Source: Acidobacteriota bacterium (GTDB lineage: Bacteria; Acidobacteriota; Terriglobia; Acidiferrales; UBA7541). Taken from it: DNA of 64,000 nt. Within the stretch, counting starts at the first letter, position 1; every line of letters starts with the position of its first letter. The notes under the pieces are model-generated. The model was not told where the DNA came from and ran no database searches. It was given only the letters and a program-made list of their open reading frames with translations. Location: positions 1 through 64,000 of the forward strand of contig QHYI01000131.1 in the NCBI GenBank assembly GCA_003223245.1, given 5' to 3'. Below, piece after piece: positions 1 through 26,306 of this stretch. The translations under genes and the position numbers were made by a program.

Positions 1-312
1 TTGTACGTCAGCACGGCGAATTGCCTGCCGGTGTGCCACGCGATCGGAGCCGCCAGCCTGCGTGACAAAATCAAAGTGATTGCCACCGACTTGTTTAGGG
101 AAATGGTTCCTTACTTTGAGCGGGGCCCTATTCTGGCCTCGATTCACCAACGTCCCTACCTTCAGGGCCAAGTGGCAGTGCGTTTGGTGGTGGACCATCT
201 TGTGAATGACCGGCCCATTCCCTCCGCCTACTTTCTAACTCCTCACGTCGTTCTGCAATCGAACATGCATCTGTTTCGCGAGCTGCGCCAAGACGGTTTA
301 CCGGAAGGTTAG
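1..312 (+). CDS. LacI-type transcriptional regulator, C-terminal fragment
   Basis: The reading frame is open from the first base and ends at TAG 310-312, so only the last ~103 residues are in the window. The segment reads like the end of the periplasmic-binding-protein-like sensor domain of LacI/GalR regulators: a KVIATD strand, then ILASIHQRPYLQGQVAVR, which matches the family pattern of a default-binding loop followed by a helix that packs the C-terminal subdomain. The DNA-binding half would lie upstream. It sits 274 bases before a TonB-dependent receptor and a run of glycosidase genes in the same direction, which suggests a sugar-responsive regulator of that island. A stand-alone sugar-binding protein cannot be excluded without the N-terminus. 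Confidence 0.7.
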   Translation: MYVSTANCLPVCHAIGAASLRDKIKVIATDLFREMVPYFERGPILASIHQRPYLQGQVAVRLVVDHLVNDRPIPSAYFLTPHVVLQSNMHLFRELRQDGLPEG

Positions 313-410
313 GCACTTTTCGAGACCTAAAATGCGCGGCAACGTGTCGCTCGCGGCGCACTCGCGCGAGCCTTGTCTTTGGGCATCAGGAGATTTTTTA
401 GAAGTTTCGC

Positions 411-440
411 TTGACAAGTCCGAAGACGCTAGAGTAGTTT
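411..440 (+). promoter_or_regulatory. Putative sigma-70 promoter of the TonB receptor gene
   Basis: A consensus TTGACA (-35) lies at 411-416, with a TAGTTT-like -10 at 435-440 (18-base spacer; TAGAGT at 430-435 would be too close). It is the only good match in the 274-base gap after the LacI-type gene and lies ~147 bases before the receptor start, leaving a long 5' leader. Confidence 0.4.
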
Positions 441-586
441 TGCGCCGTGTCCGTTAACGAGATGCGCCGCTAAAGGGTGTCCGGATTATCTTCGCAGCGT
501 AATCCTTGATCGCCAAAGCCGTTTGGCTGGCTCGCTAAGCTGACCCGCCCTTGGGGTGGGAAGTCAAAAGCTGACAGGGGGCCAAA

Positions 587-3500
587 ATGTCGTCGTCGAA
601 ATCTCTCCTTCGGGTTACCTTCGGGATATTGGGAATCTCGACCTTGCTTTCCCTGGTGACGGGCGTAGCTTCGGCCCAGGTGGACACCGGGACGATCTTG
701 GGTACTGTCACCGACCAGTCGGGCGGGGTGGTCGCCGGCGCCTCGGTGACACTAACCAATCAAGGTACGGATCTCGAGCTCACCACCGTCACATCGAACA
801 CCGGCGATTACATTTTCACTCCCATCAAAATTGGGACCTACAAAGTCACTGTCAGTAAGTCCGGCTTTCGGACGTTCAGCCATATCAACATCGTTGTCAA
901 TGTGCAAGCTCAGGTGAAGGTGGACTTCGCGCTGGAACCTGGCGTGGTCACAGAGACGGTAGAGGTCACCGCTGCCGCCCCGCTCCTCCAGACCCAATCA
1001 GCGACCGTAGGGCAAACAGTTGGCTCACGCCAGATTACCGATCTGCCTTTGCCGAGCCAGAACTACACCTTTCTCGCACAACTCGCCGCCGGAGTGACGA
1101 CCGTGGCCACCGGGGGCGGGGGGCGCTTCAATAGCACCGGCGGCTTTGTTGCCAATGGCTTGCCGGCTCCCCTCAACAACTATATTTTGGACGGAATCGA
1201 TAACAACAACGATGAGGTGGACTTTCTGAACGGGACCGCTTACGTAAACCTTCCGCCGCCTGACGCCATCCAGGAATTCAAGCTTCAGACCAGCAACTTC
1301 AGCGCCGAGTTTGGGCGGGCCGGAGGCGCGGTAGTGAATGCGGCCATCAAGTCCGGCACAAACGATTTTCATGGAGATGTTTGGGAGTATCTGCGCAACG
1401 ATAAGCTGGACGCAAACGGATTTTTTGCGAACGCTCTGGGCCAGGAAAAGGGAGAATTGCGGCGAAACGAGTTTGGAGGGGCATTAGGCGGCCCGATTTT
1501 ACGGAACAAGACTTTTTTCTTTGGTGACTACAACGGGATTCGGATCCGCCAAGCCTCCCTACACACGCCCACGGTTCCCACCGCCGCGGAGGCTGCCAGT
1601 GGTTTCGCCAACTTTCAAGATTTGCTTGCAACGAATCCTTCCTCGAGCAGCGACCTACTGGGCCGAACCTTTCTGAACGAAACCATCTTTGACCCCGCCA
1701 CCACGCGGCCGGTGGTGTGCGGGGCGGCGGACCCGGTCACCGGACTGGTCGGGACATGCCCGAAAGGAGCTGCACCGGGGACAAGCGTGGGATATGTGCG
1801 AGATCCTTTCAGCTTCAACTCAGGTTCCGGAAACAACCTCTATGGAACCCCAGGTTGTCCCTTCGCCATGTCCGACTTTACCAGCGCTGCTGCGATTAGC
1901 GCCTGCAGCCTGAACAGCATCAACCCGAACCGCCTCGATCCCAACGCCATTAAGCTCCTTCAGCTCTACCCCACGCCAAACGCCTTTAATCCGGGGATTA
2001 AAGCGGTCCAGTTCATGAATACTTATGCGGTTAATCGCAGCCAGCCCGATGACACCAATCACTTTGACATTCGCATTGACCAGAACTTCAGCTCCAAGGA
2101 TCAGCTGTTCGGTGCTGTCAGCTACACCAAGCGGCACGCATTTTTTCCGGGCGACTTCGTCGGGTTGGCCTCGAACGCGGGGTTTGGGGCGGGGAACTTT
2201 GATGATTTGTCCATCAACTCTGCCATCAGCGAGACGCATGTCTTCTCGTCTACCATGATCAACGAATTTCGCATCGGGTACAGCCGCCTGCACACGATTT
2301 CGAACCCGATTCTGGTGAACCAACCGGGCATTCCCGCGCAATTCGGAATTCAGGGCGTTTCCCAGGCGAACGGTAACTATGGCTTGCCAGACATCCACTC
2401 GGACGGTTTGACAGACCTCGGCGCGGGAGCTTTCGCGAGCCCCAACACGCGGATTAGCAACACCGTGCAGCTTTCAGAGAACTTAACCAAGATTTACGGC
2501 AAGCATAATTTCAAGGGAGGCTTTGAGTTTCAGACGGTTCGTTTTCCGTGGACCGACCCTGCATGGTCCCGCGGACAACTCAACTTTGGAGGCTACACCG
2601 GCATTCCTAGCGTAACAGGCGGTGTCGGCATGGCCGACATGCTGCTCACACCGATAGCAGCAACCGTTCCCACGGGAATCAACGACGTAGGCGGGCCGAA
2701 CCGTGTCTTTGCCTCGAACATCACAGCCATCGACGACATTCGGCACTATTACGCTTCCTATTTTCAGGACGATTGGAAGCTGACCCCGAAACTGACCTTG
2801 AACCTTGGGCTGCGTTGGGAATTTTTCGGTCAAGTTCGGGAGACGGCGGGGGCGGACGCAGTCTTGTATCCCGGCGCGCCCAACGGGGCCGGCGCTGAAT
2901 ATGTGATTAACTCGGCGAGCAAGAATGTACCCTTATCCCCATCCTTTACTTCGCTGCTTGCGACGGATGGGATCAAGCTCGCGTATTCGAGCATCCCCGG
3001 CCTGACAAATACTCCGCTGACTGATTTTGCCCCCCGCACCGGCCTGGCATGGCAGGCTACGCGCAAGGCGGTCGTGCGTCTCGGCTACGGTATCTTTTTC
3101 GGAGGGTTTCAGGCTCTTGGCGGCGCGCCCGATCCCGGCTACAACTATCCCTTTGCGGTCAACTTATCGTTCTTTCGGCCCAATGACACCAGCCCGATTA
3201 CCTTCCCCGGCGGACAGAATGCGACGCTCGAAACCTCTCTCATCAACGCGAACCCCAACCCCGCCAGCCCAAACTTCAACGCCGAGGGCTTGGGCCTGAC
3301 CGGGTTCCAATATCCCTGGAAGACAGGCTATACCCAGGAGTGGAATGCAGCGTTTGAATACCAGTTCACGCCAAACCAAAGCATCACACTCCAGTATATT
3401 GGGAACACCTCGCGCCATTTGCTGAACGGCGATAAGCGAAACGTAACCACCGAGATTCTGCCGCCGGGCACGGCGTGCTGCAAATCTTATATTCCCTTCC

Positions 3501-4315
3501 CGGATTTCGGATATAACAGCGACTATGTTGCCGCGAACGGCGATGCGCATTATCACGCCTTTCAGGCCACCTTCGAGAGGAGATTCAGCGAAGGACTCCA
3601 AGCGCTGGTGAACTACACGCGCTCAGAGTGCATGACCGACGCAAGAAACATTCTTAACAGCTTCGGCGACAACATCTTTGCCCGCGCACCCTTGTTGCCG
3701 GGCTTCGGGCTGAAGGCCGATTACCGTCACTGTGGGTCAGACGTACCCAACATTTTCCATGCAAGCGGTATTTGGGGCGTCCCCTACGGAAAGGGCCGGC
3801 GCTTCGCAAACAATCTGGGCGGCCCCTTGAACCAGATATTGGGCGGCTGGGACGTGGTCGGGATTTTTACCGCTCAAAATGGCTTTCCGTTCAGTGTTGG
3901 ATGTGATCCCGGCACCACCGCAAACTTCAATTGCTACGCCAATTTGGTGCCTGGGATGGGTCCTTATGCGAACCAGGGGCCTCACGGCATCGTTCATTTT
4001 ATGAATATCGCGGCCTTTGCCGAGCCGCCCGCTGCCACAGCAATCGGTCAAACCGATTACTCCCCACTCGGCAGCAAGCCCGACCTGTTCCACGGGCCAA
4101 CCTTCAGCGAGCTCGATTTCTCACTGTTAAAACAATTCCAAACCACGGAGAGGACACACCTGGAATTTCGCGGCGAATTTTTTAACTTGCTCAATCATCC
4201 GAGCTTTAACAACCCAAGCTCGCTGGACATCAAGAACCCATCGAACTTTGGAGTAATCACCGGCACTCGCGGTATCGCGCGCCAAGTCGAGTTGGGTCTC
4301 AAGTTCTACTATTAA
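587..4315 (+). CDS. TonB-dependent receptor with carboxypeptidase-regulatory domain (Oar-like)
   Basis: This 1242-residue outer-membrane protein has a signal peptide ending near residue 30 (GVASAQ), a carboxypeptidase-regulatory-like beta-sandwich at ~33-115 (GTILGTVTDQSGGVVAGASV), a plug domain at ~120-250 containing ILDGIDNNNDEVDFLNG, and a long beta-barrel that ends in an aromatic residue (ELGLKFYY), as expected for BAM-recognised barrels. The domain order and length match the Oar-like receptors that are abundant in Acidobacteriota and are thought to import large ligands with TonB energy. ATG 587 follows a G-rich ribosome site (577-581). The downstream neighbours are glycosidases, so an oligosaccharide or glycolipid fragment is the likely ligand; this is inferred from context. 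No SusD-like partner is encoded nearby. Confidence 0.9.
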   Translation: MSSSKSLLRVTFGILGISTLLSLVTGVASAQVDTGTILGTVTDQSGGVVAGASVTLTNQGTDLELTTVTSNTGDYIFTPIKIGTYKVTVSKSGFRTFSHINIVVNVQAQVKVDFALEPGVVTETVEVTAAAPLLQTQSATVGQTVGSRQITDLPLPSQNYTFLAQLAAGVTTVATGGGGRFNSTGGFVANGLPAPLNNYILDGIDNNNDEVDFLNGTAYVNLPPPDAIQEFKLQTSNFSAEFGRAGGAVVNAAIKSGTNDFHGDVWEYLRNDKLDANGFFANALGQEKGELRRNEFGGALGGPILRNKTFFFGDYNGIRIRQASLHTPTVPTAAEAASGFANFQDLLATNPSSSSDLLGRTFLNETIFDPATTRPVVCGAADPVTGLVGTCPKGAAPGTSVGYVRDPFSFNSGSGNNLYGTPGCPFAMSDFTSAAAISACSLNSINPNRLDPNAIKLLQLYPTPNAFNPGIKAVQFMNTYAVNRSQPDDTNHFDIRIDQNFSSKDQLFGAVSYTKRHAFFPGDFVGLASNAGFGAGNFDDLSINSAISETHVFSSTMINEFRIGYSRLHTISNPILVNQPGIPAQFGIQGVSQANGNYGLPDIHSDGLTDLGAGAFASPNTRISNTVQLSENLTKIYGKHNFKGGFEFQTVRFPWTDPAWSRGQLNFGGYTGIPSVTGGVGMADMLLTPIAATVPTGINDVGGPNRVFASNITAIDDIRHYYASYFQDDWKLTPKLTLNLGLRWEFFGQVRETAGADAVLYPGAPNGAGAEYVINSASKNVPLSPSFTSLLATDGIKLAYSSIPGLTNTPLTDFAPRTGLAWQATRKAVVRLGYGIFFGGFQALGGAPDPGYNYPFAVNLSFFRPNDTSPITFPGGQNATLETSLINANPNPASPNFNAEGLGLTGFQYPWKTGYTQEWNAAFEYQFTPNQSITLQYIGNTSRHLLNGDKRNVTTEILPPGTACCKSYIPFPDFGYNSDYVAANGDAHYHAFQATFERRFSEGLQALVNYTRSECMTDARNILNSFGDNIFARAPLLPGFGLKADYRHCGSDVPNIFHASGIWGVPYGKGRRFANNLGGPLNQILGGWDVVGIFTAQNGFPFSVGCDPGTTANFNCYANLVPGMGPYANQGPHGIVHFMNIAAFAEPPAATAIGQTDYSPLGSKPDLFHGPTFSELDFSLLKQFQTTERTHLEFRGEFFNLLNHPSFNNPSSLDIKNPSNFGVITGTRGIARQVELGLKFYY

Positions 4316-4442
4316 TTACGGCCAGGCAGCGGATTCCCGGCCGTCGACAAAGCCCTCTTACCGAAGGACCCATCACACGCGTATCGGCTGGAGTCGGTTA
4401 CGGCCGAAGGAATTTTCAATCCGCCGAAGCCAGGAGGGCCCC

Positions 4443-6683
4443 ATGCATCATTTCCGCCTCGTAAGCTTCTTCGCCGTGGTTCTGGCGCTTGTGAGCGCGG
4501 AGGAAATTCGAGCGCAGTCGAGCCCGCCGGCCGGCAGCGGCTGCACGGTTGCCGCGTTGCCCGCCTTGCCGCTCGAGGTCCATGGTCGCTGGATCGTCGA
4601 TCACAAGGGCCATCGGGTTAAACTCGCGGGTGTCAATTGGTACGGCGCCGAGGAAAAGGATTTTGCGCCTGCCGGTCTTTCCCTGGCGCCTCTGGAACAA
4701 ATTGTGAACGAGATCCGCTGCATGGGGTTTAACGTAGTTCGCCTTCTTTGGTCGAACGAACTGTACGAATCGAACCCCGTCGTGAGCGAGGCGGCGGTAG
4801 CTGCCAACCCGCAGTTTCAGGGTAAGCACGCGATGGATGTCTTGGATGCTGTGGTTGGCGAGCTGGCTGGGCAAGGCCTGATGATCGTTCTCGACAACCA
4901 CATGAGCAATGCGGATTGGTGTTGCAGCAACACGGACGGTAACACCCTGTGGTACACCTCGCAGTATCCGGAAAGCCGCTGGATTGCCGATTGGCAGGGC
5001 ATGGCGGCGAGGTACCGAAACCTGCCGCAAGTGATTGCCGCCGACCTCCGTAACGAACCTCGCTCGAACGCCACATGGGGCGGTTCCGCCGCAACCGACT
5101 GGCATGCCGCTGCCGAACGCGGCGGCAACGCCGTACTCGACGCCAATCCCAACCTGATCATTTTCGTAGAAGGGGTCAACTATGCAGCCGACTTGACCGG
5201 CGTTCGGAATCTCCCGGTGGTCTTGAATCTTCCGGGTCATCTCGCTTACGAAGCGCACGACTATCCCTTCTACCACAGTCAGCTCACCAGCGAAGCGCAG
5301 CTCGACCAGCAATTGAATCAATCCTGGGGCTATATCCTCACTCCCGATCAGCCTTATACCGCTCCGGTCTGGGTGGGAGAGTTTGGAACTTGCCATACGC
5401 AATCGTCTTGCCTGGAAAGTTCGTCTCCGGGCCCGTACGGCTTCTGGTTCGAATCCTTGCTGCGCTATTTTAGCCAGTACGATCTGGATTGGTCGTACTG
5501 GGCGCTTAACGGCACTGCCGCTACGGGTACAAGCCGCCACTTTGGCGCGGAGGAGACATTCGGAATCCTCGATCCCTATTGGAACGCTCCCGCCATTCCC
5601 GACGAACTGGCTCCGCCGCCATCCATCAATCTCCTAGGGATGCTCCAGACCGCCATCCAGCCGCTTCAAGGCCCCGGCAACAGCGCTTCTTACCCACCAG
5701 TGGTTTATATGACTAGCCCAGTCAACGAGTCCGTCTTTGCTGCTGGCAGCACCATTACGCTTTCTGCGGATGCGACGACGTCGTACGGAAACGTGAGTGC
5801 GGTTAAGTTCTTCGCCAATGGTGAATTGTTGGGCTCGGTCAGCCAGGCGCCATTCGCGTTCGACTGGCTCAACGTGCCTGCTGGCATGTATGCTCTTCGC
5901 GCGGAAGCTGTGAGCTCAACCAGCACCGGCGCCACTACGAGTCTCGAAAGTGAATCTGCGCTGAGCGCAATCGATGTCGTGGACTATTCCGCAAGGCATC
6001 CTGCCTACGGCAAGAGCATCGCGATCAACTTTGTCGGTTGGTGGGGATTCCCGGGCACACCCATGAGCCAAAGTGAAGTCGCGGGCGTTGTGCCACAATC
6101 CAACTGGAATAACGCGTACGGAAATTCAGGAAGCCTATCTTCGTTGGCAGACAGCGCAGGCCATTTAACTACTGCTTCCGTGGATTGGACTTCTACTAAC
6201 ATGTATTCCACTTCGATCCCAGATGCACCGGGGAATTTCCGCATGATGAAAGGCTATCAAGATAATTCGAATACGATTCCCACCGTGATTCACCTGCGCG
6301 GCCTTCCGGATTCCCTCGGGCCGTACGATGTGATTGTTTACTTTGACGGGGGGAATGGGCGGGCGGCGCGCGCTGCCAATTACCGCATTGTGACCTCCGA
6401 AGCAAGTGCGGCAGGCTCAGCCTCCGCATTTTTCGGTTGCCCGCAAGGCGTTGCCGGACCGGCAACGATCATCAGTGGATTGGATGCGGCCAACCAGGAT
6501 TTTTCGGGCATTTTCACCCTTGCAGCTGGTGGAACGGCAGGCAATTACGTCCTTTTCCCTGATTGTCATGGGACAAGCTTCACCCTGCTCCCGGTTCACG
6601 GAGCTTCGACGGATAGTCAATACCGCGCTCCTATCAACGGTATACAGATCCTGTCGCTTTCGGACAATCAAGGAAGTCCGTAA
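4443..6683 (+). CDS. Glycoside hydrolase family 5 protein with Ig-like and C-terminal accessory modules
   Basis: This secreted enzyme of 746 residues has a signal peptide at ~1-25. The GH5 (beta/alpha)8 domain covers ~40-385, with the acid/base Glu205 in DLRNEP and the nucleophile Glu313 in VWVGEFGT. GH5 enzymes are retaining endo-beta-glycanases (cellulase, mannanase and others); the exact substrate cannot be read from the sequence. A Big_17-like bacterial Ig domain follows at ~418-492 (VKFFANGELLGSV is typical). The last ~240 residues form a separate module with NFVGWWG near its start and a beta-rich composition; it may bind carbohydrate, but I do not recognise a named family. The gene lies 127 bases after the receptor and in the same direction, so the two are probably co-expressed. 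Confidence 0.85.
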   Translation: MHHFRLVSFFAVVLALVSAEEIRAQSSPPAGSGCTVAALPALPLEVHGRWIVDHKGHRVKLAGVNWYGAEEKDFAPAGLSLAPLEQIVNEIRCMGFNVVRLLWSNELYESNPVVSEAAVAANPQFQGKHAMDVLDAVVGELAGQGLMIVLDNHMSNADWCCSNTDGNTLWYTSQYPESRWIADWQGMAARYRNLPQVIAADLRNEPRSNATWGGSAATDWHAAAERGGNAVLDANPNLIIFVEGVNYAADLTGVRNLPVVLNLPGHLAYEAHDYPFYHSQLTSEAQLDQQLNQSWGYILTPDQPYTAPVWVGEFGTCHTQSSCLESSSPGPYGFWFESLLRYFSQYDLDWSYWALNGTAATGTSRHFGAEETFGILDPYWNAPAIPDELAPPPSINLLGMLQTAIQPLQGPGNSASYPPVVYMTSPVNESVFAAGSTITLSADATTSYGNVSAVKFFANGELLGSVSQAPFAFDWLNVPAGMYALRAEAVSSTSTGATTSLESESALSAIDVVDYSARHPAYGKSIAINFVGWWGFPGTPMSQSEVAGVVPQSNWNNAYGNSGSLSSLADSAGHLTTASVDWTSTNMYSTSIPDAPGNFRMMKGYQDNSNTIPTVIHLRGLPDSLGPYDVIVYFDGGNGRAARAANYRIVTSEASAAGSASAFFGCPQGVAGPATIISGLDAANQDFSGIFTLAAGGTAGNYVLFPDCHGTSFTLLPVHGASTDSQYRAPINGIQILSLSDNQGSP

Positions 6684-6835
6684 GCCCCGGAAACGCTTCA
6701 TAAAAACAGCGGCCATCCAAGCTGCGGGGCCAGAGCTTTCTCACTTGGTTGATAGGGGCGTGAGTTCCAGAGGCTACAAGAAAAAGAGTCCTTCGGGCCT
6801 TCAAGTTGAATCTCTGGGGATCGCGGGTTTATGCC

Positions 6836-8026
6836 ATGTCGAAAATCTTAAGATTTCCGTGGGCGCATGCGCTTCTGGCGGGCTGGGCCATAACCTGGTC
6901 GGCTGCGCCACTTTGCGGGCAGACTTCTGGGCTCGCTGAAAATCCACCTATGGGATGGAACGACTGGTATCAATACGGTTGCCAGGTCTCTGACCAGATT
7001 GTCCGCGCCAATGCCTCGGCCATGGTAAAGAGCGGTATGAAAGCGGCCGGGTATACCTACGTCAACATCGATGATTGCTGGCAGGGACAGCGCGATGCCA
7101 AAGGCTTCATTCATCCGAATGATCGCTTCGCGAACATGAAAGAACTCGGCGACTATATTCACAGCCTCGGACTGAAATTCGGAATCTATTCCTCGCCAGG
7201 GCCAAAAACTTGCGCTGGGTACGAGGGCAGTTACGGTCATGAACAGCAGGATGCGGATACGTATGCTGGATGGGGAGTTGATTTCCTCAAGTACGATTGG
7301 TGCAGCGCGTCAAAAGTTTACCAGCCCGATCAGATGCAGGCCGCCTACCGGAAAATGTACGAAGCCATTCGCAGCACCGGCCGCCCCATGGTTTTCAGCC
7401 TTTGTCAGTACGGGCTGGAAACGGTCTGGCGCTGGGGAGCTTCGGTGGGCGGCAACATGTGGCGCACTACCGATGACATCGGCGGCGACTACAACAGAGT
7501 TTCGCTCTTCGGATTCCAACAAAATGGCCTCGCAAAGTTCGCTGTCCACGGCCATTGGAACGATCCGGACATTCTTCAAGTCGGGCTGGGCCACCTCAAC
7601 CACGAGGAACAGCTTACCCAGATGAGTTTGTGGTGTCTTTTGGCCGCCCCACTGCTGGCCGGCAACGATCTGACCAAAATGACAGAGGAAACGCTTCAAA
7701 TTCTGACTAATCCGGAAGTTCTCGCAGTTGATCAGGACCCCGATGGCGTTCAAGGGTACAGGGTTTCGCAAGAGGGACCGCTCGAAATCTGGGCCAAACC
7801 GCTCTCGGGAAACGCTATCTTAGTGGGGTTGTTCAACCGCAGTGAATCTGCCGTTCGCATGGAGATTCCCTTCAAAGCTCTCGGGATGAATGGGCCTCTT
7901 CAAGGGCGCGATCTATGGCAGAGGAAGGATCTCGGAGTCCTCCAGGAGCATTTCTTCGATGAAGTCCCGCGCCACGGCGTGGTCCTCATCAAGCTGAAAG
8001 CATCGTCCGGCAAGTCAGGTTCTTAA
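6836..8026 (+). CDS. Alpha-galactosidase, glycoside hydrolase family 27
   Basis: The product (396 residues from ATG 6836) removes terminal alpha-galactosyl residues by a retaining mechanism. GH27 hallmarks are clear: NPPMGWNDWYQYG at the mature N-terminus, YVNIDDCW at ~75-82, the nucleophile Asp154 in LKYDWC, and the acid/base Asp214 in WRTTDDI. After the barrel comes LAVDQDPDGVQG and a C-terminal beta-sandwich. A signal peptide precedes residue ~30, so the enzyme is exported. The frame also allows TTG 6806, but ATG 6836 starts directly at the signal peptide (MSKILRF) and is preferred. It lies 152 bases after the GH5 gene and before the GH59 gene, all in the same direction. Confidence 0.9.
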   Translation: MSKILRFPWAHALLAGWAITWSAAPLCGQTSGLAENPPMGWNDWYQYGCQVSDQIVRANASAMVKSGMKAAGYTYVNIDDCWQGQRDAKGFIHPNDRFANMKELGDYIHSLGLKFGIYSSPGPKTCAGYEGSYGHEQQDADTYAGWGVDFLKYDWCSASKVYQPDQMQAAYRKMYEAIRSTGRPMVFSLCQYGLETVWRWGASVGGNMWRTTDDIGGDYNRVSLFGFQQNGLAKFAVHGHWNDPDILQVGLGHLNHEEQLTQMSLWCLLAAPLLAGNDLTKMTEETLQILTNPEVLAVDQDPDGVQGYRVSQEGPLEIWAKPLSGNAILVGLFNRSESAVRMEIPFKALGMNGPLQGRDLWQRKDLGVLQEHFFDEVPRHGVVLIKLKASSGKSGS

Positions 8027-8196
8027 TGGAGCAAAAAAGGAGCGTCTCAGGCAGCCACAAGCCCAGCTATTTGTCAGGCGAGTTCTCAGATGCCAGGTTG
8101 ATCGTCGAACCTGGAATCGAGTTTGCTCCCCGGTGACCCTTGCCGGTGGGGTTGTTCAGAAATAGGGAAAATTTTTCTCTCAAACGAGGCTTCGTT

Positions 8197-10209
8197 ATGG
8201 ATCCAAGCTACACAGGCGGCCGGCGAAAGAGCGTGGTGGGCGGAATTCTGCCGGGTGCGTTGGCAATGTTGTGCCTGCTCTCGGGATGCACTTCACGAAA
8301 GTCAGCGCCCGAAACGACGCGGATCACCGTAGACGGCCATGGCGCGGGCCGCATTTTTGACGGCATCGGCGCTCTTAGTGCCGGGGCGTCCTCACGGCTG
8401 CTCGTCGACTATCCTGAGCCTTTTCGTGCCCAGATTCTTGACTATCTCTTCAAACCTGATTACGGCGCTGCTCTCCAGCATTTAAAAGTAGAAATCGGCG
8501 CCGATGTGAATTCGACCGATGGCGCCGAACCGAGTTTTGCGCGTACACGCGCTGAAATGGCTCATCCCAATTTCAACCGCGGCTATGAATGGTGGCTGAT
8601 GGAGGAGGCAAAAAAGAGGAATCCGGAGATCGCGCTCGACTCGCTCGCCTGGGGGGCGCCGGGATGGATTGCCAATGGTCACTTTTATTCACAAGATATG
8701 GCCGACTACACCGGCAAGTTCATCGAGGGGGCGAAGACAGCGCACGGCCTGGATATAAAGTACACAGGTATTTGGAACGAAAAGCCCTATGAGGCGGATT
8801 ACGTGGTTCGCCTGAAGAGAACGCTATTGAAGAACCAGCTTTCGACCGGGATTGTATGCTGCGATCTTACTCCGAACGAAAATCAATGGTCCCGCGTCAC
8901 TGACGACATGGGGAAGGACCCTGAATTCCGAAATGCAATTAGTGTGATTGGCGTCCACGCGCCCAACGTTGTCGAGGGAGCAACGGTTCCATCAGCAGCG
9001 CGCGAGAGCGGGAAGCCCTTGTGGGCCTCTGAGGATGAGTTTTTTTACTACACAAGCGGCCTTTCAGAGAAATGGTCTCCGTTTGCGGAGTCGCTGGCTA
9101 TGATTTACAACCGAAACTACATCCAAGAAAGAATCACCGCCACAGAGATTTGGAGCCCGGTGACATCGTACTACGACAACCTCGCGGCTCCGGGATCAGG
9201 CCTCATGCTCGCCAATACTCCCTGGTCTGGGCATTTTGAAATCTCCCCCATGGTCTGGGTCACGGCTCATACCACACAGTTTGCCGCCCCGGGCTGGCAG
9301 TACATCGACAGCTCCTGTGCACCTCTCGCAGGCGGAGGGAGCTACGTCACACTGAAATCCCCTTCCAATACGGGCTACAGCATGATCGTGGAAACTATCA
9401 ATGCCAAAGAAGCGCAGCGCATCGAGGTTCACCTCACGGGAGGGCTTTCACAGGGTCCGGCTCACGTCTGGGAAACCAACGCTAGCAAGACTTTCGAGCA
9501 CGTTGCGGACATCTCTCCGCGAGACGGCACTTTCAACCTCATGCTCGATCAAGACTCCATTTATTCCATAACCGATACCACTGGCCAAGCAAAGGGAGCG
9601 GCAGCACCCCCTCCCCCGGCGCCTTTTCCGTTTCCGTACGCCGATGATTTTGAGCACACTGAAGTTGACCGTTCCCCGCGTTACTTTGCGGACCAAGATG
9701 GGGCCTTTGAAGTTCGTCCCTGCAAGCAACGGCCGGGACGCTGTCTCGATCAAGTCATCACGCGTCAACCCATACCGTGGAGTCCGCTGCCCGATCCGTA
9801 CACATATCTCGGGGACGCCCATTGGCAGGACTACACCTTAAGTGCGGATGCGCTGCTCTCTGGCCTCGGAGACATTACGCTCCTCGGCCGTATCGATGAC
9901 GCCGATGTTTTTAAAGATCATAAAGCGCGTTTCCCGAGCGGTTACATTCTGCTCGTGGATCAAAACGGAAGTTGGCAGCTCGACAGCGCTGCCTATAAAT
10001 TGCCCACGGTAAAGCTCGGCTCCGGGAAAGTGTCTTTCGACCTCAGGAAATGGCACCACCTCGTTCTGGCCTTCCATGGCGAGGACCTTGTTGCTTCAAT
10101 CGATGGTACCCAACTCACGCACTTGACCGACACACGCCATAAACAGGGCATGGCAGGCATAGGTTCCGGCTGGAACCGAGCAGAGTTCGATAATTTTGAC
10201 GTTCATTAG
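8197..10209 (+). CDS. GH59 galactocerebrosidase-like lipoprotein
   Basis: The 670-residue product resembles galactosylceramidase (GALC, GH59), which cleaves beta-galactosyl bonds in galactolipids. The pattern GRIFDGIGALSAGASSRLL opens the catalytic barrel. The two catalytic glutamates can be placed as Glu195 in GIWNEKP (acid/base) and Glu279 in LWASEDE (nucleophile). A C-terminal ~170 residues fits the lectin-like/LamG-type sandwich of GALC. The start ATG 8197 has ACGAGG at 8184-8189. It yields a lipoprotein signal with lipobox LSGC (Cys31), so the enzyme is probably anchored in the envelope. An upstream TTG (8140) would bury the signal peptide. GH59 is well known in animals and sparse in bacteria, so activity on a galactan or plant galactolipid is only inferred. 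Confidence 0.85.
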   Translation: MDPSYTGGRRKSVVGGILPGALAMLCLLSGCTSRKSAPETTRITVDGHGAGRIFDGIGALSAGASSRLLVDYPEPFRAQILDYLFKPDYGAALQHLKVEIGADVNSTDGAEPSFARTRAEMAHPNFNRGYEWWLMEEAKKRNPEIALDSLAWGAPGWIANGHFYSQDMADYTGKFIEGAKTAHGLDIKYTGIWNEKPYEADYVVRLKRTLLKNQLSTGIVCCDLTPNENQWSRVTDDMGKDPEFRNAISVIGVHAPNVVEGATVPSAARESGKPLWASEDEFFYYTSGLSEKWSPFAESLAMIYNRNYIQERITATEIWSPVTSYYDNLAAPGSGLMLANTPWSGHFEISPMVWVTAHTTQFAAPGWQYIDSSCAPLAGGGSYVTLKSPSNTGYSMIVETINAKEAQRIEVHLTGGLSQGPAHVWETNASKTFEHVADISPRDGTFNLMLDQDSIYSITDTTGQAKGAAAPPPPAPFPFPYADDFEHTEVDRSPRYFADQDGAFEVRPCKQRPGRCLDQVITRQPIPWSPLPDPYTYLGDAHWQDYTLSADALLSGLGDITLLGRIDDADVFKDHKARFPSGYILLVDQNGSWQLDSAAYKLPTVKLGSGKVSFDLRKWHHLVLAFHGEDLVASIDGTQLTHLTDTRHKQGMAGIGSGWNRAEFDNFDVH

Positions 10210-10397
10210 CCCCTTATTCGGCTTGCCGCTCCGCCCGAAGTATCGAATGTCACCTGAGTGTCTCCAAAACGGTTCGTCCATGGCGAGAGCCGAGGCGCGT
10301 ATTTTCCCGGAAACGCCAGTGCAGGTGAAACAAAGTAAACCACAGAAAGAAAGTCTCCAGGTTCCAAGTGAGCATTTTGTTATTTGGCCTGAATCGT

Positions 10398-12182
10398 TTA
10401 GGCGCTCGCTTTCATACGATGGATAATCCCGGAACCTTCTTTGATTGTGAGGATTCTGTTGACTTCGAGATTCGTGAAGGTTTCAACCTCTTGGGTCGTT
10501 GGCCATTTGACCTCCAGGCGGTCTATGTTTTCTGCGTCGCCCAACCCAAAATGCAGGCGTAAGTCGCTCTGGGACATAACGCTTGTGCCACTATGAACCT
10601 CATCCGTTTGCGAGTGCTTTCCGGTTACCACGCGCACGCGGGCGCCAATGGCTGTGCGGTTGCATTTCGTTCCGACCAGTTTGATCTTGATCCAATTCTT
10701 TTTGTTCCCTCCGTCGTTGCGCAACAGAGAAGGATAGTCGTTCATATTGTTCACCACGACGTCCACATCCCCGTCGTTATCGTAATCCCCAAAAGCACAT
10801 CCGCGGCTTGAAAAGCGTTGCGTAATCCCTGGCCCCATCTCCGCGGAGACGTCCTTGAACCTTCCCGTGCCGAGGTTGTGGTACACCAGGCGCGTTTCTT
10901 TAAAAGTCTGGCCTAATTGATGTTGGTCGATTTCCGGGTAAACATGGCCGTTGATTTGGATAATGTCTAGCCAGCCGTCATTGTCATAATCGACGAACCC
11001 GGCGCCCCAGCCAACATATTTAGTGTTGCCGCCGAAGCCGGCCATGGCCGTCGCATCCCGGAACGTCCCATCACCGTTGTTGCGGTAAAGGTCGCACGTG
11101 TCGTTGGAAAAATTCGTCTTGAAAATATCGAACCAACCGTCGCAGTCGTAGTCACCCACCCCCACGCCCATGCCGGCCTGCTCCTCCCCATCATCGTTGT
11201 AAGCAACTCCGGCCAAGATGCCTACATCCTCGAACGTTCCGTTATGCCGGTTTCGGAACAGAATGCTTGGCATCGAATCCACAGCCACATAAATATCTGG
11301 CCAACCGTCGTTATCGAAATCGTAAGAGACGGCGGTGATGGAATAACGCGGCCCTGGCTTCAAGATTCCCGCTTTCTCGGTCACATCGGTGAACGAGCCG
11401 TCTGCATCATTGTGATAAAGCAGATTGCTGCCAGGCGGGAGCCCGCGGGGACCGCACATCACAGGAATTCCTTCCCACTGGCAGTGGCTCCCGTGTCCTG
11501 CGGGGGGGACTTTGGACACGTCAAGAACGATGTAATTGGCCACAAAGAGGTCAAGGAAGCCATCGCGGTCATAATCGAGCCAGGTGCAGCCCGAACCCCA
11601 GCGCACTTGGTCTTTCCAAAGGCCTGCCTTGCGCGTCACATCCGTAAAAGTTCCATCGCCATTGTTCCGGAACAGAATGTTGTGTCCCCAAAACGTAAGA
11701 AAGAGATCATCCCATCCGTCGTTGTCATAATCGCCTATGCATACGCCGGTCTGCCAGCCGGTTCGCCCGATGCCCGCTTTTTCCGTGACGTCGGTGAACG
11801 TGCCGTCCCGGTTATTTTTGTAAAGGTGCGTCGTTGGCGCCTGCCCAGGAGCCCACTTCTCCCCAAGCCTTGTCCCATTCGTCAGATAGATGTCGATCCA
11901 GCCGTCCTGGTCGTAATCAAAGAACGCAATGCCACTCCCCTTTGCTTCGATGATGTAGTTCTTGTGGTGGACGCCGCCCCAAACATTCCGCGTGTTGAGC
12001 CCGGCCTCGCGTCCTACATCCACGAAAGTGACCGGTGAGGGATCTTGAGGACCCGCCGCTACTTTCGTTCGCAACTCGGGAAGTGTCCTCCACCTCCAAA
12101 TAGGAGTGCGCAGGAAATCAACCAGGCCGGAACCCAGTAGAACAGCGGAATTGCGCAATAGCTGGCGCCGCGAAAATCTCAT
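10398..12182 (-). CDS. CRTAC1-like FG-GAP/VCBS propeller protein with ASPIC-UnbV domain (Tat-exported)
   Basis: The 594-residue product starts with a twin-arginine signal (SRRQLLRNS). It is then filled by repeated calcium-binding loops of the type DYDNDGWLD (for example DYDQDGWIDIY and DYDNDGWDDLF), each followed by LYKNNRDGTFTDV-like strands. This is the FG-GAP/VCBS beta-propeller pattern. The last ~90 residues form an ASPIC/UnbV domain (AIGARVRV, LHFGLGDA, VKWP). Proteins of this build are extracellular or periplasmic with unknown function; some are neighbours of polysaccharide-degradation genes. It converges with the GH59 gene (188 bases apart) and diverges from a second protein of the same kind. 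Calcium-dependent ligand binding is an inference from the loops. Confidence 0.85.
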   Translation of the reverse strand: MRFSRRQLLRNSAVLLGSGLVDFLRTPIWRWRTLPELRTKVAAGPQDPSPVTFVDVGREAGLNTRNVWGGVHHKNYIIEAKGSGIAFFDYDQDGWIDIYLTNGTRLGEKWAPGQAPTTHLYKNNRDGTFTDVTEKAGIGRTGWQTGVCIGDYDNDGWDDLFLTFWGHNILFRNNGDGTFTDVTRKAGLWKDQVRWGSGCTWLDYDRDGFLDLFVANYIVLDVSKVPPAGHGSHCQWEGIPVMCGPRGLPPGSNLLYHNDADGSFTDVTEKAGILKPGPRYSITAVSYDFDNDGWPDIYVAVDSMPSILFRNRHNGTFEDVGILAGVAYNDDGEEQAGMGVGVGDYDCDGWFDIFKTNFSNDTCDLYRNNGDGTFRDATAMAGFGGNTKYVGWGAGFVDYDNDGWLDIIQINGHVYPEIDQHQLGQTFKETRLVYHNLGTGRFKDVSAEMGPGITQRFSSRGCAFGDYDNDGDVDVVVNNMNDYPSLLRNDGGNKKNWIKIKLVGTKCNRTAIGARVRVVTGKHSQTDEVHSGTSVMSQSDLRLHFGLGDAENIDRLEVKWPTTQEVETFTNLEVNRILTIKEGSGIIHRMKASA

Positions 12183-12423
12183 TTCCTGCTAATGCCGCGG
12201 AGAATTCTTGTGAAGGTGACTTTAAGACGCCTTAGGTCATTCTTGCAGCGGGGCGATTATAGCACAGCCCGGGTCGCCATCTCGTCTCTGTCGACGACCG
12301 ACCAAATCGCGGCTTAGGACCTGCTGGCTTGTGCCCGGATGATTCATTTCCTTGATTGAGCAAGCCCGGAGCTTGGCGCTATAGTGAGACGTTGCTGCGT
12401 CGGGGAAACTGCGAGCGGTCTCG
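12183..12423. promoter_or_regulatory. Divergent promoter region between two CRTAC1-like genes
   Basis: This 241-base gap separates two diverging genes. On the minus strand a consensus TATAAT reads from 12261 to 12256, ~74 bases before the minus gene, with no convincing -35. On the plus strand TATAGT at 12380-12385 lies ~39 bases before GTG 12424, again with a weak -35. Dependence on an activator or an alternative sigma factor is possible. Confidence 0.4.
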
Positions 12424-14193
12424 GTGAATAGGCGACTTGCCAGAACGAAAGGGCGGAGGTCACGCCGCGAGTTTCTTAGAGCCTCCGCCACGCTATTGGC
12501 TGGAACCGCCTGCGGCACGATCTCATCGGGCATGTCGTTCAGCCGGACAGTTCCGGCCGTCTCTCCAGCGATCTCAATTCCCGTCAAGTTCACCGATGTG
12601 CGCAAGCGCGCCGGAATTTCCTTCGAGCAGGACTCCACCGGAAGCTCTGAGAAATATTACCTTGAAACGATGGGCTCTGGCGTTGGCTGGCTCGACTACG
12701 ACCAGGATGGCCTTATGGACCTCTTCTTCGCCCAAACAGCGGCCACCGCTGCCTACACCCCGCCGCACGCGCTTCGGTCCTCGCTCTACCGTAACAATGG
12801 AGACGGCACCTTCACTGATGTGACTGAGAAAGCTGGGGTTGGAGGTGAGGGCCACTATGCTCAGGGCATAGCCGTCGGTGATTATGATAATGACGGGTAT
12901 CCGGACCTCTATGTGACGGGTTATGGTCGCGCCATTCTTTACCACAACAACCGTGACGGCACCTTTACCGACGTGACGGATAAGGCGGGAGTGTCGGATT
13001 TAGGGCAGTGGTCCACCAGCGCCGCATGGTTCGATTACGACAGGGACGGCTGGCTCGACCTCGTGGTCTGCAATTACGTGAATTGGTCCCCCAAACATAA
13101 CCTCTGGTGCGGCGAACACCGGCCCGGCCTTCGCGCCTACTGCAGCCCAAACGATTATTCCGGCCAGCGCATCGCTCTGTTCCACAACAATCACGATGGA
13201 ACATTCAGCGATGTTAGCCTGAAGTCCGGAGTGGGCAAGCCGGAAGCCAAGGGCATGGGCGTCGTCACAGCGGATTTCGATAACGACGGCTGGCCCGACA
13301 TTGCCATCGCCAACGACACTTGGCCGAACTTTCTCTTCCTTAACCAGCACGATGGCACGTTCAAGGATGTCTCCTTCATTTCGGGCGTCGCGGCAAGCGA
13401 AGACGGAAAATACGAGGCTGGTATGGGCATCGACGCCGCCGACGTCGACGGCGACGGCTGGCTCGACATTTACATTACGCATCTCGACTTCGAGCTCAAC
13501 CGCTTGTATCTCAACAACCGTGACGGAACGTTTACCGATGACACCTTCGGATCGGCCATCGGTTCCACCGCTATTTTACTGAGCGGCGTCGCCATGAAGT
13601 TCATGGACTACGACAACGACGGCTGGGAAGACATCGTGCAGGCGAACGGAGCCATGCTCGACAACATCCGCTTGTACCACAGCGAGGTTAACTACCGGGA
13701 GCCGATGCTCATGTATCGAAACCTTGGGGCCGGTAAGTTCGCTAAGGTATCTGGATTGCTCGGATCCGATTTCAACCAACCCATTGCCGGTCGCGGATTG
13801 GCAGTGGCCGATTACGATAATGACGGCGATTTGGACGTCGCCGTCGTGGACCGCGGAGGTTATCCTCTGCTCCTGCGCAATGACGGCGGCAACGCCAACA
13901 ACTGGGTCAGTGTCCGGCTGATCGGCACAAAGTCGAACCGCGACGGCAATGGCTCCTTGCTCCGCCTGACGTCAGAAGGGTTCACGCAGTCGAAGCAGTC
14001 AAAGGGAGGAATGAGTTATATGTCCGCACAGGATCCGCGCATTCATTTCGGACTCGGCAAGCGCAACAAGATTGATTCGCTGGCGATCGCCTGGCCGAGC
14101 GGCCATGAGGACAAGCTAACGAATCTTCCCATCAATCGGATCCTGACTATCAGAGAAGGCGAAGGCGTTGTGCCGATGAAATCCTATATGTGA
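12424..14193 (+). CDS. CRTAC1-like FG-GAP/VCBS propeller protein with ASPIC-UnbV domain (Tat-exported), second copy
   Basis: This 589-residue paralogue of the divergent neighbour begins at GTG 12424. It carries a Tat signal (RRSRREFLRASATLLAG). Repeated DYDNDGYPDLY-type calcium loops with YRNNGDGTFTDV strands follow through ~residue 480. The C-terminal ASPIC/UnbV-like segment contains IHFGLGKRNKIDSL and IAWPSG. One divergence from its partner is that the ASPIC start (GNGSLLRLTSEG) lacks the usual AIGARV. Being paired head-to-head with a paralogue inside a glycosidase cluster suggests the two act together in the periplasm on the same substrate, but no enzymatic residues can be named. Confidence 0.85.
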   Translation: MNRRLARTKGRRSRREFLRASATLLAGTACGTISSGMSFSRTVPAVSPAISIPVKFTDVRKRAGISFEQDSTGSSEKYYLETMGSGVGWLDYDQDGLMDLFFAQTAATAAYTPPHALRSSLYRNNGDGTFTDVTEKAGVGGEGHYAQGIAVGDYDNDGYPDLYVTGYGRAILYHNNRDGTFTDVTDKAGVSDLGQWSTSAAWFDYDRDGWLDLVVCNYVNWSPKHNLWCGEHRPGLRAYCSPNDYSGQRIALFHNNHDGTFSDVSLKSGVGKPEAKGMGVVTADFDNDGWPDIAIANDTWPNFLFLNQHDGTFKDVSFISGVAASEDGKYEAGMGIDAADVDGDGWLDIYITHLDFELNRLYLNNRDGTFTDDTFGSAIGSTAILLSGVAMKFMDYDNDGWEDIVQANGAMLDNIRLYHSEVNYREPMLMYRNLGAGKFAKVSGLLGSDFNQPIAGRGLAVADYDNDGDLDVAVVDRGGYPLLLRNDGGNANNWVSVRLIGTKSNRDGNGSLLRLTSEGFTQSKQSKGGMSYMSAQDPRIHFGLGKRNKIDSLAIAWPSGHEDKLTNLPINRILTIREGEGVVPMKSYM

Positions 14194-14335
14194 AATTCGC
14201 GATTCCCAAAAGCCCGTTTTTTGAATACCGTCCGCAGCCGAGACCGGCCGCGCTACAGGTAGCCCTGGTTTCTCGCGTATGCCCCCGGCAAATCGTTGGA
14301 AGCTCACGGTGTGCTGCTCGTCCTTGTCGGGCTAT

Positions 14336-16549
14336 TTATATCCCGCGAAGAGCGAAGAGGGCGGCCTGAGCGGCCTCGAGCTCGACAGACATCCTCCCAA
14401 CAGCGATGGAAGAGGTGCCGTTCCAAAGATCTGTGGCGCGGTAACGCGCGCCCGGTTTTAGGCCGGCACGTTTCAAGTCAATGGCCTTCGTTGCAGGTTC
14501 TTGCTGATAATTGAACACTGCGAGGTAGCAGCCCGGCCCTTCTTCGGACACGAACGTATCGGTCGCCCGGTCCCCCGTGTTGTTTTCCACAGGACGGAAT
14601 GTCTTGCCTCTTCGCGCCAATGCCAGGATAGCCGGGCGCGTCAACAATTCCACAGCCCGCTCGCGCGCATTGGAGTCAGCCGCAAGGGGATCGCTGTCAA
14701 GAAACATGCCCGTGATGGCCGAGGCAATAACGCGGCTTCTCGCTGCGTTAAGAGAATTAGGCCCGACAACAACAAGGTCGCCATCGTTATATCGGTAATA
14801 ATTGCCGAGCCACCACCCGTATGTGACCGAATTCAGCATATATTCCGTGTCGTGGATCGAGCCCGAGGCGTCGCACGAAATCCGCCGCGAGTGGCCGTAC
14901 TCCGCTCCTGGGAAAAGCGGCGCAATGGACAGACTGACGAACATCTTTCCCGCGATGGCCTCGCGAATATATCGCATGCCGTGGTTATATGCTTTGATGG
15001 CTGTCATACCGCCGAGGAAGCGCCGGCCTTCCATGGCACCGTGGGATAGGAAGTCGAGTTTTACGAACTCATAGCCCCACTGTTTGAATTGTTTCAGCGT
15101 GCTTTCCACGTACTGTTGGGTACCTGGATGCGTGGGGTCGAGCGCTCGCCCGCCGTCGGTGGCAAGTGGAACATTGTTCGGATCGCGAAGAAAAAGATCA
15201 CTCCAACTGTATTGAGGCTCGGTCCCGGGCACGGGCTCATGGTCGTTCATCGCATTTCCGAAATGCGCGAATGGCACGAAGTAGATTCCAGGACGCTGGC
15301 CATTTCTTCGAATGTGGTTTGCTACTCCTTCATAGTCGGGTTTCGGACCGGCGCCGCACGCGGAGTCCCAGTTGGCATAAACCACCCCTCCATTGCCGTA
15401 GCCGCGACTTTCTAGATCATTTCGAATGAAATCCGAGACCGAGATCATTGTTTCCGATTTGATGTTGCAACGGTACGCGTACCAGCTATTCCAACCGACT
15501 GGCATACCGCCAACCCACGGCAACCGAGGAGACATGATTTGGTTCGCCCCTCCATATTCTTCCATGCCGTTCCGCCAATCGTCGTAATAGCCCATGAATA
15601 TGCGCGGCGAGACCACCTTTGTTCCGTGTACCATTCCATGCGGCAGGCTATCCTGCGTGACCGGAGACGAAGCGCCGCCGTAAACGGTGAGAGCATTGAT
15701 CTTTCCATTCAAGCCCCGGTAATCAATGCCGGTTTTCCAGATGTCGTGGCTGACCGAGCCCACTACCAGTCCCTTGCGGCTCCGATTGTCGTAGATCGCT
15801 GTCACTTCATAGCTTGATCCCGTTCCGTTGATCGGTGCGCCTCGAAAGCGAATGAAATGGTCGTTATCCCAGGGCACGATCAGCACGCGAGGATCGAAGG
15901 CGCTGCCGATATCCAGGCCCTTGAACCCTTCCCATTGCAACGGCGCAACCCAGTTGGTCTGGATCTCGGCGGTACTTTCCACGTGGACCTCCAGCAAGAG
16001 GTATCGTTTTCCCTCGTAGAAATAGTAAGTTTGCCGCAGGGCGGGCTTTCCCACCTCCGCGGTATGCAACAAGCCCAATTGGATGCCCTTTCCGAAACCG
16101 TCAAGAAGCGGGCGAACGTCAGAAGATAAAAACATGTGCTTTGCGTAGTCCGTGCTTTTCAGCAGCGTATCCGTTCTGGCACCGCAGTACGCATTAGGGA
16201 TCCGATCTATCCCATCCCATGCGTAGCTGGTCAATCCTGTAGTCCAGAAAAAGGAAAACTGCATTGGCCCGGTGTCAACCACGAGTTTGTCGGCGGCTTG
16301 TGAAACCTGGATGTTTCCGTATTTTGTGGCTGAATCTCGTGCGAGGTTGTTGAAAAGTCGATCCGATGGCGCTTCCGACGGTCGGGCAATGGCCAGGTGC
16401 AGGGCCGCGGCACCCGCTGCTGACGACCTCTTGAGGAACTCGCGCCGAGTCAGACGAGCATCACTGCTCGCTTGATCGAGCGCCACGCTGTTTTCCTGGA
16501 GCTCGACTGCTGTTGGCTCTGGCTTTCGACAACATCGTTTTTGCCTCAC
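14336..16549 (-). CDS. GH36-like (clan GH-D) alpha-galactosidase-type glycosidase, Tat-exported
   Basis: The 737-residue product has a twin-arginine motif (TRREFLKRSSAAGAAAL, ~34-50). An N-terminal beta-sandwich covers ~75-340. A catalytic barrel starts at PVGWNSWYAYRCN and contains FVKLDFLSHG (probable nucleophile Asp499) and RISCDASGS (probable acid/base Asp560). This is the arrangement of clan GH-D enzymes, GH36 more than GH27. A small C-terminal beta domain ends the protein. Substrate specificity beyond alpha-galactoside-like is not certain; distant GH36-like proteins can act on other sugars. It converges with the second CRTAC1-like gene and closes the glycosidase island. Confidence 0.75.
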   Translation of the reverse strand: MRQKRCCRKPEPTAVELQENSVALDQASSDARLTRREFLKRSSAAGAAALHLAIARPSEAPSDRLFNNLARDSATKYGNIQVSQAADKLVVDTGPMQFSFFWTTGLTSYAWDGIDRIPNAYCGARTDTLLKSTDYAKHMFLSSDVRPLLDGFGKGIQLGLLHTAEVGKPALRQTYYFYEGKRYLLLEVHVESTAEIQTNWVAPLQWEGFKGLDIGSAFDPRVLIVPWDNDHFIRFRGAPINGTGSSYEVTAIYDNRSRKGLVVGSVSHDIWKTGIDYRGLNGKINALTVYGGASSPVTQDSLPHGMVHGTKVVSPRIFMGYYDDWRNGMEEYGGANQIMSPRLPWVGGMPVGWNSWYAYRCNIKSETMISVSDFIRNDLESRGYGNGGVVYANWDSACGAGPKPDYEGVANHIRRNGQRPGIYFVPFAHFGNAMNDHEPVPGTEPQYSWSDLFLRDPNNVPLATDGGRALDPTHPGTQQYVESTLKQFKQWGYEFVKLDFLSHGAMEGRRFLGGMTAIKAYNHGMRYIREAIAGKMFVSLSIAPLFPGAEYGHSRRISCDASGSIHDTEYMLNSVTYGWWLGNYYRYNDGDLVVVGPNSLNAARSRVIASAITGMFLDSDPLAADSNARERAVELLTRPAILALARRGKTFRPVENNTGDRATDTFVSEEGPGCYLAVFNYQQEPATKAIDLKRAGLKPGARYRATDLWNGTSSIAVGRMSVELEAAQAALFALRGI

Positions 16550-24620: not shown

Positions 24621-26306
24621 TCATTCTCGAGGCTCCCGCGTCTGCGGCCATTGCAATACTACGATTCTGCCGTCGGCTTCCCGTTCCAAGGTCGGCGCAT
24701 ACAATCCCAACTGCTCTCGCCGCCACCACATGCCCGTCGCGCGCTTTTCCTCTGGCGTCGTGAACCAGTATTGCCATAGCACCGCCCGTACCTCTTTCGG
24801 TGGAGCTTTCGGAAAGGGATTGCCAGCGAACAACTCCAGCACATCTTGCGAGCCTCGCAACAAGGCCTGCTCCGTTCTCGGCACAATCATCGACTCATCC
24901 CGCCAAGTGCTTAGCGAAGCAAACCACAAATTCCAATCGAAGCGCGGCTGATATGGGGCGTAAATCCCCGGCGCCTTCGCGGAATTCTGCGGCTTGAAGC
25001 GGAACGGATAAACCAGCCAGTTCTGCCCATCGTCTGAGCCTTGGAACTCAATCTCGTATCGTCCCCGCGCTAGCGCCGCGACAGGCGTGGTAGGCAGCTC
25101 TACCGGCCGCACCATCCAGATCATCTGCACGGTTGTCGCATAGAAAATCCATGTCAGCATCACCGCCGTCAACGCCAGCTTCAACGCTGCCCATTGCTTC
25201 TGCGCCGCCTTCCTCCAATTTTTTCCTTGGTTCGATTCGGCCTTAGGCTTCATTCCCTCCGGTTCAACAACTTTGTTGCTGTCGAGCCTCTCGGATGCCA
25301 ATGGTGGTGTGTGCTCTAGAGCAAGGCCCAACGTCACCGGTTTTTCTCCTAATTCGTTTTTTCCTCCGTCAGAGCTAGCTACACCGAGGCTATCTTTCCA
25401 GCGTTTCGGCACGAATCGTTTCAGCACCTTGTCATCTAGCAATAAGAACCCGAGCACCAGCACCAAATAATTCAAAAACGTGTAGTTCGCCGAGAGAATG
25501 ATTCCGACCTGCCACGGCGTCACAATGCAAAAACACGCGATCCGAAACCGCCTGGGAAAAAACATCGTCCACACCAGGGCCAGTTCCAGTGCCAGCGTCC
25601 CGAACGCCATCGCCGCCTGAACCCTGTGCGGCCAATGTTGCATGTACCATCCAATCCAAGTCGGCAGCGGCCCGTTCTGGTAGTAATCATCGAGCGCCGT
25701 GAAGTTCCGCCACTCCGGGTCGCCTCCCATAATTTTGGCCACGCCCGATTCGAAATAGATGCGGAAGCATTCCCACAGGAGCAAAAACCAGCTCGCTCGC
25801 GAAGGTGGGCTCGCCTCGCCCCAGCCCGGACGAAACCCCTTCGGCGCGTAAAATAGGGCAATAAATCCCGCCTCCAGAAGCATTCCATCCGATTGGTACC
25901 CGGAAAAATCCCGCGCTGCACTCACAAACGAAAGGAAACACACGAAGCAGATCGCCAGCATTCCGCGCGGCCATAAATTCAACACCAGCAGCACCGACGC
26001 GATCATCCCCACCCAGCAAATCGCCGTCAGCATGTGCCGCCCGCTCGAAAACCATAGCAGTGTCGGCGCATACCAGTAACCCACTCTGCCAAGCTGTTCC
26101 GTCACCGCGCGCAAATATTCGGCAGCCGGAAGAATGCCTTGCGGCCCGATCAATCCTTTGATTTGAAAAACCAGGGAGAAAAGCGCGGAGTAATAAATTA
26201 GCCCCAGCGCGCGTAGGAAAATCCAGCGCGGCAGCAGCCCGTCAGGTTTGCCTGGTTGGGAAGCAAACAGCCAGCGCACCGCCGACGCCGGTGACCAGTC
26301 CTTCAT
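24621..26306 (-). CDS. Lipase maturation factor (LMF1) family membrane protein
   Basis: The 561-residue product has several transmembrane segments in its first ~320 residues (for example YYSALFSLVFQIKGLIG and CFVCFLSFVSAARDFSGYQS). A charged low-complexity linker follows at ~325-375, then one more membrane segment, and a C-terminal globular domain with WLVYPFRFKPQ and APYQPRFDWNLWFASL. These two last motifs are characteristic of the LMF1 family, which in animals helps lipases fold in the ER; bacterial members are uncharacterised. The gene diverges from the next membrane-protein gene and converges with the hypothetical gene at 23618. Confidence 0.8.
   Translation of the reverse strand: MKDWSPASAVRWLFASQPGKPDGLLPRWIFLRALGLIYYSALFSLVFQIKGLIGPQGILPAAEYLRAVTEQLGRVGYWYAPTLLWFSSGRHMLTAICWVGMIASVLLVLNLWPRGMLAICFVCFLSFVSAARDFSGYQSDGMLLEAGFIALFYAPKGFRPGWGEASPPSRASWFLLLWECFRIYFESGVAKIMGGDPEWRNFTALDDYYQNGPLPTWIGWYMQHWPHRVQAAMAFGTLALELALVWTMFFPRRFRIACFCIVTPWQVGIILSANYTFLNYLVLVLGFLLLDDKVLKRFVPKRWKDSLGVASSDGGKNELGEKPVTLGLALEHTPPLASERLDSNKVVEPEGMKPKAESNQGKNWRKAAQKQWAALKLALTAVMLTWIFYATTVQMIWMVRPVELPTTPVAALARGRYEIEFQGSDDGQNWLVYPFRFKPQNSAKAPGIYAPYQPRFDWNLWFASLSTWRDESMIVPRTEQALLRGSQDVLELFAGNPFPKAPPKEVRAVLWQYWFTTPEEKRATGMWWRREQLGLYAPTLEREADGRIVVLQWPQTREPRE

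Follow-up and report, generated by a model that had tools for sequence, protein, structure and literature searches.

A composite glycosidase block in an Acidobacteriota genome contains a putative TonB receptor-coupled galactoside operon

The window analysed here comprises 64 kb from the start of contig C23, part of a 6.3 Mb Acidobacteriota assembly of approximately 96% completeness from a soil bacterium, such that window position 1 is the first base of the contig. A preliminary description of this stretch listed a regulator, a receptor, glycosidases and exported propeller proteins at its start, and all of those gene calls and coordinates were confirmed (Table 1). These genes span at least three transcription units of alternating orientation, meaning that “one block” denotes proximity only. 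Within it, the receptor, GH5, GH27 and GH59 genes lie on the same strand, separated by intergenic gaps of 113-127 bp, while GC content is nearly flat over the whole block. Scans for promoters and terminators returned site counts below those of shuffled sequence. The right boundary at position 16549 is sensible, as a methyltransferase gene, ProA/ProB-like genes and others of housekeeping type lie downstream of the GH36-like gene. Further into the window, positions 24621-26306 encode an LMF1-like lipase maturation factor protein, here in a bacterium, which has no link to the glycosidase genes.

Table 1. Genes at the start of the window, with domain matches (E values) and the place proposed for each.
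Feature	Position	Strand	Domain match	Proposed place
LacI-family regulator, C-terminal 103 residues	1..312	+	Peripla_BP_4 (9.7e-9)	core
Oar-type TonB-dependent receptor, CarboxypepD_reg domain and OMP_b-brl_4 barrel	587..4315	+	OMP_b-brl_4 (8.7e-196)	core
Secreted GH5 enzyme, endoglucanase-type, Big_7 domain and C-terminal extension	4443..6683	+	Cellulase (2.1e-37), Big_7 (1.5e-15)	optional member
GH27 alpha-galactosidase, first ATG at residue 11	6806..8026	+	Melibiase_2 (2.6e-60)	core
GH59 galactocerebrosidase-type beta-galactosidase, predicted lipoprotein, likely start at residue 20	8140..10209	+	Glyco_hydro_59 (6.6e-103), middle and C-terminal domains	core
FG-GAP/ASPIC-UnbV propeller protein, RR (Tat-like) N-terminus	10398..12182	-		neighbour, not core
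Second FG-GAP/ASPIC-UnbV protein, RR (Tat-like) N-terminus	12424..14193	+		neighbour, not core
Clan GH-D (GH27/GH36-like) enzyme, predicted Tat export	14336..16549	-	Melibiase_C only	neighbour, not core

All eight catalytic residues named in the preliminary description are present. Those of the GH5 enzyme (E205 and E313) and the GH36-like enzyme (D499 and D560) occur at exactly these numbers, whereas those of GH27 (D154 and D214) and GH59 (E195 and E279) are correct when counted from the first ATG, corresponding to residues 164 and 224, and 214 and 298, of the respective longer open reading frames. The GH27 protein combines its domain and both catalytic aspartates with the galactose-binding DD motif (DDCW), and its nearest relatives are alpha-galactosidases (6f4c, 5e-84; 1uas, 3e-81). 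The regulator was correctly recognised as LacI-type, although the gene is incomplete, as the contig start cuts it and leaves only a C-terminal fragment that matches Peripla_BP_4 and no other Pfam model. An intact homologue of 354 residues is found at another GH59 locus (L074), with LacI-family regulators among its best NCBIfam matches.

The GH59 protein is a bacterial cousin of the enzyme underlying human Krabbe disease, as it matches all three Pfam domains of mammalian galactocerebrosidase (GALC), and aligns with mouse GALC (4ccc) at 2e-108 with both ends covered. The resemblance extends to the checked residues of the active site: all 32 bacterial GH59 sequences compared conserve both catalytic glutamates, along with the residues aligned with GALC T93, W135, N181, E182, E258 and W524, positions assigned to the galactose site of the GALC structure. 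Unlike mammalian GALC, this bacterial protein is a predicted lipoprotein, with a lipobox (LSGC) ahead of the mature sequence that recurs in the homologues at L073 and L074 and is absent from most other relatives.

The context of this gene was compared with approximately 60 other GH59 loci in all, 49 of which came from a scan of named genomes, using a script to compare gene order and Pfam to name the neighbouring genes. Strong GH59 matches occurred in 11 of 396 genomes sampled across the phylum, window genome included. Within the order of the window genome, the only full match was the window copy, with the matches in the other 94 genomes searched being weak and mostly partial; hence the operon is sporadic. 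Where it does occur, the arrangement can be closely preserved. The order at L074 is LacI, receptor, GH27, RhaT-like sugar transporter and GH59, with identities to the window proteins of 76% (LacI, across the C-terminus shared with the window fragment), 57% (receptor), 77% (GH27) and 69% (GH59). When the L074 receptor was searched against the window genome, the top match was the window receptor (59%), ahead of two paralogues (53% and 51%). The GH27-transporter-GH59 series is also kept at L073 and L076, and L090 retains GH27 and GH59 with one unscanned gene in the transporter position, while at L072 and L075, which belong to the same GH59 subclade, GH27 is missing beside GH59. A sister version in the Acidobacteriaceae joins GH59 to an MFS sugar transporter, a DUF5107-TPR protein, and LacI, a receptor or both (for example L141, L146, L147, L077, L079, L082 and L088), in the case of L147 as receptor, TPR protein, DUF5107-TPR protein, MFS sugar transporter, GH59 and LacI. 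The DUF5107-TPR proteins are approximately 1100 amino acids long, and form a recurring cassette with the adjoining MFS transporter and GH59 at L077, L079, L082, L141, L146 and L147.

The GH59 sequences of both locus versions fall in one fully supported Terriglobia clade of 27 in a quick tree. It is therefore unlikely that the core was recently acquired by horizontal transfer from a distant phylum, as the flat GC content also indicates. Separately, the two GH59 copies of genome G446 (L140 and L145) group with actinobacterial GH59 sequences rather than this clade, which suggests that they crossed between phyla; both have receptors nearby, and one of them is accompanied by GH38 and GH92.

These comparisons uphold the earlier proposal of a receptor-linked system for galactose in two anomeric linkages, since other Acidobacteriota share the order LacI, receptor, GH27, (transporter), GH59. 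They do not uphold its extension to a single island covering the whole of positions 1-16549. The comparison of gene order across acidobacterial genomes, which the preliminary description had itself suggested, found the core order in related metagenome-assembled genomes, but not conservation of the other members: GH5 adjoins GH59 at some loci, an ASPIC-type gene does so only at L086, and homologues of the GH36-like enzyme were beside none of the GH59 loci examined. Judged by gene content and synteny, the 16.5 kb block is a composite of a conserved putative galactoside operon, an optional GH5 gene and unrelated neighbours, with a predicted core of LacI, Oar-type TonB receptor, GH27 and GH59. That even the core might be an accident, with its members sharing no function, is conceivable in a genome this rich in receptors and glycosidases, as approximately 65 receptor barrels and 36 ASPIC matches are spread over the 6.3 Mb assembly, and neither the ASPIC pair nor the GH36-like gene is conserved with GH59. 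Yet receptor, LacI, GH27 and GH59 recur together on independent contigs, with the order of the core conserved, making chance assembly very improbable.

Both propeller proteins have the N-termini expected from the earlier report of two Tat-exported proteins, but the predicted Tat substrates number three, as the N-terminus of the GH36-like enzyme is also a Tat signal. The catalytic domain of this enzyme matches no Pfam model; the Melibiase (GH36) catalytic model did not match the window protein, whereas the true GH36 at L152 scores 2.5e-118. The alignment with TmGalA (1zy9) reached 2e-8, and a profile built from six homologues matched both GH27 and GH36 structures (best 4nx0, 4e-17), with D499 and D560 invariant in all six. 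The protein is thus a predicted enzyme of clan GH-D, the GH27/GH31/GH36 superfamily, that is not assignable to GH36. As its homologues recur in the receptor loci of related genomes, it may represent an undescribed family. Those loci (L150-L152), of an Acidobacteriaceae type, contain GH95, a GDSL esterase, GH27-CBM35 and GH36. They resemble the window in having a receptor, a homologous GH36-like enzyme and, in one case, LacI, but they lack GH59, while the GH36-like gene of the window closes the block, with an orientation of its own.

Half of the genome's ASPIC/UnbV matches (18 of 36) lie no more than 8 kb from an Oar receptor, against approximately 6.9 expected (p ~ 3e-5 in a rough binomial test, which takes no account of contig ends or of clustering among ASPIC genes). 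This moderate enrichment suggests that, in this lineage, ASPIC genes and receptors are in part functionally linked. Despite this genome-wide association, only one relative has an ASPIC gene near GH59, and a role for the pair as the SusD substitute of this locus was rejected. Alongside the core, the ASPIC pair and the GH36-like gene are, on the evidence of synteny and orientation, putatively separate transcription units that became neighbours by chance.

The absence of SusD itself, remarked on in the preliminary description, was borne out genome-wide: neither of the two main SusD models (PF14322 and PF07980) found a match in the block or the whole assembly, while both detected a Bacteroides control. 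This is a property of a genome that nevertheless encodes approximately 65 Oar-type barrels, and is therefore uninformative about this locus. Receptor-linked sugar loci without SusD have long been known in Proteobacteria. The window locus is of this already known kind: TonB-receptor carbohydrate-utilisation (CUT) loci likewise comprise a receptor, a sugar regulator and exo-glycosidases without SusD, and here a TonB-dependent receptor, regulator and glycosidases are adjacent. It differs from CUT loci in its Oar-type receptor, which carries a CarboxypepD_reg domain, and in having no inner-membrane sugar transporter in the block, although its relatives have one. A search of the window genome with the RhaT-like transporter found a single relative, only 28% identical. 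The likeness to the SusC/SusD loci of Bacteroidota lies in the grouping of glycosidases and a regulator with an outer-membrane receptor, whereas the window has no SusD, and an Oar-type receptor instead of SusC.

The GH5 gene raises the question of whether the substrate is a polysaccharide backbone. Its product retains the glutamates of the NEP and GEFG motifs and, through its best relatives in the PDB, CelE2 (6e-56) and endocellulase E1 (8e-51), resembles an E1-type endoglucanase. Hence, as a relative of these endo-beta-1,4-glucanases, it is predicted to be a glucan-type endo-enzyme, not a galactosidase. The alternative that GH5 is an endoglycoceramidase, and that its combination with GH59 serves glycosphingolipids, was also considered and rejected, given the endocellulase relatives and a weak, partial match to the NCBIfam endoglycoceramidase model (21 bits against a cut-off of 700). 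As GH5 lies inside the same-strand run, the whole block could instead be one hemicellulose island, in which GH5 would cut a beta-1,4-glucan or glucomannan backbone while GH27 and GH59, perhaps with the GH36-like enzyme, trimmed galactose side chains. Consistent with this, nearly full-length GH5 relatives adjoin GH59 at L086 and L087, the only such cases among the GH59 loci compared; however, these are sister sequences in the quick tree, and so may represent a single further event. GH5 was present in 6 of the 396 phylum-sample genomes, including the window genome, and both GH59 and window-type GH5 are held by G224 and G265, though at separate places in the genome. L074 and most other GH59 loci lack GH5, and the GH36-like homologues belong to other loci, such that a hemicellulose island is an unlikely explanation. 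GH5 is rather, by this comparative evidence, a putative optional addition to GH59 loci, present in only some.

The pairing of alpha- and beta-galactose enzymes in the conserved core makes galactolipids, which are abundant in plant litter, an attractive substrate. GH27 would cut the alpha-1,6-galactose of digalactosyldiacylglycerol (DGDG) or digalactosylglycerol, and GH59 the beta-galactose of the resulting monogalactosyl product, matching the two linkages of alpha-Gal-(1-6)-beta-Gal-glycerol. Moreover, GH59 is a full-length relative of the lipid-acting GALC, and the window, L073 and L074 proteins resemble lipoproteins. However, the scanned genes beside GH59 included no recognisable lipase or esterase, the Acidobacteriaceae version lacks GH27, and a search of the open-access literature found no link between GH59 and bacterial galactolipid use. 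Furthermore, GH59 is accompanied in other lineages by GH42, GH38/GH92, GH2/GH3/GH78-like or GH30 genes, which point to polysaccharides or glycoproteins, and GH59 consequently appears to be a general exo-galactosidase module. Use of galactolipid headgroups by this operon is accordingly an improbable reading, and it is a long shot that GH27-transporter-GH59 forms a dedicated bacterial pathway for the headgroups of plant DGDG, monogalactosyldiacylglycerol (MGDG) or their deacylated glycosides, employing a full-length GALC-type enzyme without saposin.

Hence the conserved unit, comprising LacI, Oar receptor, optionally GH5, GH27 and GH59, is probably a LacI-controlled, TonB receptor-coupled operon for scavenging galactosides. 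Starting from the gene content, domains, catalytic residues and synteny observed, we infer its substrate, localisation, transport and regulation as follows. The receptor would import small galactosides across the outer membrane; GH27 would remove terminal alpha-galactose, and the lipid-anchored GH59 terminal beta-galactose. An inner-membrane symporter, encoded by the operon in relatives but not in the window, would then carry the freed sugar into the cytoplasm, and the presence of the sugar would relieve repression by LacI. The window strain has a gene for a secreted, endoglucanase-type GH5 between the receptor and GH27. Elsewhere, approximately 2 kb upstream of a close paralogue of the window receptor (L155; G000:C127:14000-33900), a Melibiase-type gene lies on the opposite strand, a hint that galactosides may be what receptors of this subfamily handle.

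This analysis therefore corrects the boundaries of the proposed island, leaving a small unit (receptor, GH27, GH59 and sugar transporter) found repeatedly among Acidobacteriota, whose carbon sources are poorly known. As no characterised bacterial GH59 was found in the open-access literature, an assay would give this GALC-like family a function. Should the galactolipid reading prove true, soil bacteria would be connected to a major pool of plant membrane lipid.
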